NCBI GenBank assembly: GCA_003215655.1
Contig: QCKB01000003.1
Location: forward strand, 124,001-188,000
Direction of reading: 5' to 3'
Length of the DNA: 64,000 nucleotides
DNA from: Prochlorococcus sp. AG-409-J16
GTDB lineage: Bacteria > Cyanobacteriota > Cyanobacteriia > PCC-6307 > Cyanobiaceae
Positions 58,873-60,129 of this stretch are shown here, one piece after another; positions within the stretch are counted from its first letter, which is position 1, and each line of letters opens with the position of its first letter. The translations under genes were made by a program, and so were the position numbers. The notes beneath the pieces were generated by a model. That model was not told where the DNA came from. It ran no database searches and saw only the letters and a program-made list of their open reading frames with translations.

Positions 58873-58954
58873 GCCCACCTGGCGGAATTGGTAGACGCGC
58901 TGGTTTTAGGTACCAGTGACTTCGGTCGTGGGAGTTCAAGTCTCCCGGTGGGCA
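58873..58954 (+). tRNA. tRNA-Leu(UAG)
   Basis: 82-nt class II cloverleaf: acceptor GCCCACC/GGTGGGC, D arm with GGCGGAATTGGTAGAC, anticodon stem CTGGT/ACCAG around TTTAGGT (anticodon TAG), a long variable arm GACTTCGGTC, T arm GGGAG-TTCAAGT-CTCCC, discriminator A. CCA not encoded. Confidence 0.96.
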
Positions 58955-59090
58955 CTCAAAAAAACTCCAGATACAGTGAACTTAATGTCTTTGGCTTATG
59001 ACATAGAACTTCGATCCAGCAAGAGCGACGTTTCCCTAACCTGGCCTTATCTTCACCCTCAACTCGCCCTAATAGCAACGCTGCAGATAA

Positions 59091-60129
59091 ATGAACCAGG
59101 CGCTTAGCACAAATGATTCCATTGAGTTAACCAACCAATTGCCTTCATTTAGCCATTGGCAAAAAGTTATTCAAGACTACCTAGCCCCCCCCCAATGTAT
59201 GGAATCCAACGGTGGGGCTATTTATTGGAGGATATTTGTTAGCAGCTCTTGCCATTTGGCAGTGGTATCAAGGAACTTGGCCCCTGCCGGTATTAGTTGG
59301 GCTTGCTTTTCTCTCTCTGCATATGGAAGGCACTGTTATTCATGATGCTTGCCATAAAGCGGCACACCCAAATCGTTGGGTGAATCAATTTATGGGCCAT
59401 GGGGCAGCAATATTGCTCGGCTTTAGTTTTCCAGTATTCACAAGAGTGCATCTTCAGCATCACTCTCATGTAAATGATCCCAAAAACGACCCTGATCACA
59501 TAGTTAGTACCTTTGGGCCAGTTTGGTTAATCGCACCAAGATTCTTTTATCACGAATACTTTTTCTTTGAAAGACGCCTTTGGAGAAATTATGAATTAAT
59601 GCAATGGGGAATAGAGCGAGGATTATTTATTTCAATAGTTATTGCTGGTATTAAATATAATTTTATGAATGTTATTTACAATCTTTGGTTTGGTCCAGCC
59701 CTAATGGTAGGAGTAACACTAGGTATATTTTTTGATTACCTTCCACATCGACCCTTTATATCAAGAAACAAATGGAAAAATGCAAGAGTTTATCCAAGCA
59801 GAGTAATGAATTGGTTAATCATGGGTCAGAACTACCATTTAGTTCATCATCTTTGGCCATCAATTCCTTGGTTTGAATACAAACCTGCTTATGAAGCCAC
59901 TAAACCTCTATTAGATGCAAAAGGATCACCACAAAGAATGGGTATATTTGAAACCCGTTCAGATATTCTTAATTTCCTTTATGACATTCTTGTTGGGATA
60001 AGAAGTCATAAAAAACGTCGTAGCAAAATGCGTCCGATAGCAAAATTGTTACCTAGTCCAAAATGGAGAAAACGTTGGATTGGGCTATTGCATCGAACAG
60101 CCGTAACACCTATTTCAAATAATCAATAA
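59091..60129 (+). CDS. crtR: Beta-carotene hydroxylase CrtR, apparently frameshifted at a C9 run
   Basis: Fatty-acid-hydroxylase fold with His boxes HDACHKAAH, HLQHHSHVNDP and MGQNYHLVHHLWP and several membrane segments; makes zeaxanthin by 3-hydroxylation of beta-carotene rings. ATG 59091 opens MNQALSTNDSIELTNQLPS to DYLAPP, then the run of nine C (59185-59193) puts the ribosome in the wrong frame, which stops at 59345. The catalytic part lies in the +1 frame (open from GTG 59212). With eight C the frames join as DYLAPP-NVWNPTVGLF, as in other CrtR proteins. Cause: a sequencing error, slippage or a true mutation. Without the repair only a shortened GTG start could be used. Confidence 0.9.

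Follow-up and report, generated by a model that had tools for sequence, protein, structure and literature searches.

In poly-C contingency loci, such as the one in Streptococcus mga, the reading frame is switched when a poly-C run within the coding sequence changes by a single base (e.g., PMC10330708). The genes controlled in this way are surface or regulatory genes, and the defining properties of such loci are a repeat whose length sets the frame, the retention of that repeat across relatives or strains, and the coexistence of different run lengths within a population. Programmed ribosomal frameshifting is recognized by a conserved slippery site together with a stimulatory element; bacterial ribosomes are known to slip by +1 at proline codons of the CCC-C type. 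Two other sources of frame breaks at homopolymers are mismatch-repair mutators and indel errors in assembly. In MED4, mutS is reported to be present without mutL or mutH, and the status of mismatch repair there is described as open (PMC2921402; see also PMC5101192).

Here, these systems are compared with a frame break in crtR, the gene for beta-carotene hydroxylase, in a 64,000-nucleotide stretch of Prochlorococcus sp. AG-409-J16 (GenBank assembly GCA_003215655.1, contig QCKB01000003.1, forward-strand positions 124,001 to 188,000), referred to below as the window. The features discussed are listed in Table 1.

Table 1. Positions of the crtR features and of the other broken G/C runs (plain numbers are window positions; other coordinates carry genome, contig, or stretch labels)
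Feature	Position	Strand	Basis or comment
tRNA-Leu (anticodon TAG), shortly upstream of crtR	58873..58955	+	ARAGORN
crtR N-terminal frame, 84-aa truncated product	59091..59345	+	Aligns with the N-termini of relatives up to DYLAPP
C9 run, frame break in crtR (C8 = in frame)	59185..59193	+	Sequence; relatives have at most 6 C at the site
Sequence flanking the C run, TTATTCAAGACTACCTAG...AATGTATGGAATCC	around 59185-59193		
Peptide stretch that would span the run junction, DYLAPPNVWNPT			
crtR catalytic frame, complete in its membrane and histidine-box parts; GTG at 59212 as a possible internal start	59194..60129	+	ORF, Pfam, 91% identity to nearest relative
mutS, G11 on frameshift	G000:C4:76661-76671 (L126:1262-1272)		In-frame length G9 or G12 by alignment
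HEAT-repeat protein, G8 on frameshift	C1:600964		In-frame length G7 by alignment
ABC exporter, C8 on frameshift	C16:1531		In-frame length C7; a relative reads FDLAPPVLIGLAVDVV

The crtR frame break

Two crtR frames, offset by one base, meet at a run of nine consecutive C residues. The N-terminal frame, translated from the ATG at its 5' end, reads MNQALSTNDSIELTNQLPSFSHWQKVIQDYLAPP before departing from the CrtR sequence and reaching a stop codon at 59343-59345, and its product contains ...DYLAPPQCMESNGG...; the catalytic frame, which carries NVWNPTVGLFIGG..., is uninterrupted from the C run to its 3' end and comprises 305 amino acids if the internal GTG is taken as the start. In the N-terminal frame, the run is actually read as GCC CCC CCC CAA. 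The version with eight C residues would be read as GCC CCC CCC AAT GTA TGG AAT (APPNVWN), which is colinear with every relative in the alignment. The sequence-only reading had placed the junction of the two frames at nine C residues, with termination at 59345, and had proposed that eight would restore the expected CrtR; both claims hold.

Its assignment of the gene to crtR is likewise borne out. The catalytic frame matches the Pfam FA_desaturase family (E=1.8e-35), and the histidine boxes HDACH, HLQHHSH, and HLVHH, all located 3' of the break, complete the fatty-acid-hydroxylase/desaturase membrane domain that characterizes CrtR proteins. The other mark of these proteins, a single unbroken frame that includes the N-terminal YLDPP...NPTVGLF motif, is missing in this genome only. 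A search of the genome itself revealed no second crtR copy; with a single crtR, there is no intact spare.

The existence of a C run in the window is close to chance expectation, with 4 C7 matches observed versus 4.1 expected from dinucleotide shuffles. What chance does not account for is that the run coincides with the very point at which a conserved gene loses its frame. The flank pattern, used in a search of viral contigs for other run lengths, gave no match, and the literature searched for homopolymers in Prochlorococcus or frameshifts in crtR yielded no description of this case.

The crtR site in related genomes

CrtR proteins were matched in 95 of the 99 genomes included in the search of relatives, and 80 of the loci came from named records, mostly of Prochlorococcus and Synechococcus. 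The frame is continuous at the site in all 109 related loci (74 distinct N-termini), and the longest C run found there is 6. The sequence-only reading had suggested counting the run in related strains; this count leaves C9 as a feature of the present genome only. Across the 74 distinct N-termini, there is no variation at the second P of DPP, at either the N or the T of NxT, or in the subsequent LF, and 72 of them have the D of DPP. In this genome, the conserved D is replaced by A (GCC), a substitution that makes the C run longer. Comparison of the downstream part of crtR with that of the nearest relative revealed 126 synonymous versus 25 amino-acid-changing codons, and because of this ratio the gene appears, on codon counts, to have been under clear purifying selection until recently.

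Other broken G/C runs in the same genome

The genome containing the window (1.84 Mb in 18 contigs, ∼40% GC in the stretches sampled) was surveyed around all G/C runs of at least 8, around the G7 and C7 runs, and around most A/T runs of at least 9. In this survey, which was post hoc (made after the crtR case had been seen) and yielded small counts, 4 of the ∼14 coding G/C runs of at least 8 sit exactly on a frameshift: those in crtR (C9), mutS (G11), a gene for a HEAT-repeat protein (G8), and a gene for an ABC exporter (C8). The remaining ten, among them G10 in a trpD-like gene and C9 in a ruvC-like gene, leave the frame intact. No break was found among the 22 coding G7/C7 runs or among the 19 coding A/T runs of at least 9, so the breaks are limited to G/C runs of at least 8. 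For comparison, 2 of 50 coding G/C runs of at least 8 are broken in five relatives, a difference with a Fisher p of ∼0.02 that is itself post hoc and based on small numbers. Measured against the in-frame lengths, three of the four runs have one base too many, and that of mutS has either two too many or one too few.

Conservation in relatives supports the assignment of these breaks. The HEAT-repeat protein is encoded in a single frame of ∼240 to 310 amino acids in 24 relatives, with both halves in the same frame in all 14 of those checked. The mutS gene of one relative (L145) reads SEIVWGGSE...WCPE through the site, and the other aligned relatives likewise have a single frame there. The mutS run is the longest coding G/C run of the genome, and its break splits domain II, leaving domains I-II in one frame and domains II-IV in another. 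Because mutS and the HEAT-repeat and ABC exporter genes are broken in the same manner at G/C runs of at least 8, the frame breaks reflect an effect of G/C runs across the genome rather than anything peculiar to crtR.

Several other flagged runs were rejected as breaks. Those at the junction of MlaE and the next gene in MIT1341xe (L263) and upstream of sepF (L123) are gene boundaries by their look, and those before frr and before an ABC exporter gene in a near-complete single-cell genome (G026; L291 and L303) look like gene boundaries as well.

Origin of the frame breaks

The best explanation of these breaks, to which we would assign a probability of roughly 50%, is a recent, length-dependent, and undirected slippage at G/C runs of at least 8 in the DNA of the cells, with neutral or deleterious consequences. 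As a mechanism, such slippage is of a known kind. In crtR, a change (probably GAC to GCC) in the conserved D codon, converting YLDPP to YLAPP, would have extended the C run of the proline codons to eight, and replication slippage would then have added the ninth C and thrown the gene out of frame. The same process would have added one base in each of the HEAT-repeat and ABC exporter genes and either added two bases to the mutS run or removed one from a run of twelve. Because crtR shows no further damage, its change is probably recent; for the cell or culture that was sequenced, it would most likely be neutral or deleterious. Cells carrying nine C residues would be expected to lose zeaxanthin; slippage being reversible in principle, cells with eight may coexist with them.

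The most serious competing explanation, which we regard as possible rather than probable, is that the ninth C in crtR, like the altered runs in mutS and in the HEAT-repeat and ABC exporter genes, is an artefact of amplification, sequencing, or assembly, and that the cells keep an intact crtR and make zeaxanthin. The breaks occupy only the longest G/C runs and fall in conserved genes, as do homopolymer indel errors, and artefacts, too, cluster at G/C runs of at least 8; apart from the break, crtR is intact and conserved. Strains in which zeaxanthin has been measured include MIT1300xe, a related LLVII isolate, and the ratio of this pigment to chlorophyll a2 generally increases with light (PMC11559063). 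The genomes of MIT1223, MIT1300xe, and MIT1341xe (G003, G057, and G031, respectively) were assembled from long reads alone (PMC11559063), and two of these assemblies show the same type of break in conserved genes. In the closed MIT1341xe assembly, a C9 run (L260:1396-1404) divides infB, coding for IF-2, with the IF2_N domain found, and in MIT1223 the product of an rsmI-like gene is shortened at its C-terminus by ∼50 residues where the gene has a C10 run (L325:1417-1426). As infB is essential in bacteria, its break is probably false, the result of an undercalled run, unless IF-2 is made from an internal start. However, the infB and rsmI runs are one base short, which is the usual result of undercalling, whereas three of the four runs in the present genome are one base long, and this slightly favours real slippage over the commonest long-read error. 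The single-cell genome G026 and another genome (G010) show no break in 18 similar coding runs, and the A/T runs of the present genome, never broken, also speak against an artefact.

Recoding and adaptive switching account less well for the same observations. The break could be real in the DNA with CrtR still being made, through +1 ribosomal frameshifting at the CCC-C that the run contains, through slippage of RNA polymerase, or through initiation at the internal GTG, whose product would retain the Pfam domain and all histidine boxes. This is unlikely: the run is conserved in no relative, the predicted RNA fold (z-score of 0.35) has no structure beyond chance, and recoding would have to act in opposite directions, +1 for three genes versus -1 for mutS. 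Thus, the region has neither the conserved slippery site nor the stimulatory fold of a programmed frameshift. The internal GTG is not preceded by any strong ribosome site that could be seen, and starting there would remove the PP...N-x-T motif, invariant in nearly all of the 74 N-termini, which argues against it as the normal start. Less probable still is that the run is a maintained on/off switch of zeaxanthin synthesis. A C9 run is long enough for reversible slippage, its length sets the frame (C9 versus C8) as in contingency loci, and low-light cells may need little zeaxanthin. Unlike in those loci, however, the run is maintained in no relative, there is no sign of a selected switch, and the genes are housekeeping ones; moreover, chance codon choice suffices to explain the run, and the equal breakage of unrelated genes points to undirected slippage. 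The list of options in the sequence-only reading was sound; among them, programmed frameshifting finds no support here, and the four broken G/C runs point to slippage, either in the cell or in the sequencing.

MutS, MutL, and the mutator question

If slippage in the cells' DNA is the correct reading, the broken mutS raises the question of a mutator. The present genome resembles mismatch-repair mutators in having a frameshifted mutS along with breaks at other G/C runs. It differs from them in that MutL is absent from the family, so that no classical pathway exists there that could be lost, and in that the A/T runs are intact, instability of all homopolymer types being the mark of such mutators. 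MutL (TIGR00585) scored below the cut-off in all 37 Cyanobiaceae searched, including this genome, and 22 of 23 other cyanobacteria were positive; MutS is kept in nearly all of the Cyanobiaceae genomes searched. With MutL absent, the repair of slipped loops may be poor in Cyanobiaceae. An independent mutS frameshift was detected in MIT1223 (L144/L327), whose closed long-read genome has one extra T in a short T run (GAGTTTTCCATTGG), and at most one of the five coding G/C runs of that strain is broken.

A path from the broken mutS to mutation at long G/C runs is attractive but weak, its causal step being unproven because of the family-wide absence of MutL and the four of five coding runs that are intact in MIT1223; for the same reasons, the mutS break is not put forward here as the cause of the other breaks. 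A bolder version, in which MutS restrains slippage at G/C runs without MutL in marine picocyanobacteria and the present lineage is a natural mutS mutant (perhaps switchable at G11) whose long G/C runs, including that of crtR, shift frame genome-wide, seems quite improbable on the available evidence.

Should the nine C residues be real, this would be a Prochlorococcus of which at least a part of the cells cannot make zeaxanthin and which also carries a broken mutS, and it would offer a natural test of the role of MutS in a family without MutL. The interest would then lie in the natural mutS break rather than in the slippage mechanism, and it depends on the runs being real in the reads. Should they be false, the case calls for caution, as frameshifts in picocyanobacterial assemblies at G/C runs of at least 8, even in genes such as mutS, crtR, or infB, should not be taken for gene loss.

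C runs in terminator-like repeats

A C17 run is found in a terminator-like inverted repeat 3' of a pilin-like gene (G000:C10:2031-2047; L132:1332-1348). A similar C9 run lies ∼5.5 kb away in a related repeat, behind a second pilin-like gene (L133).
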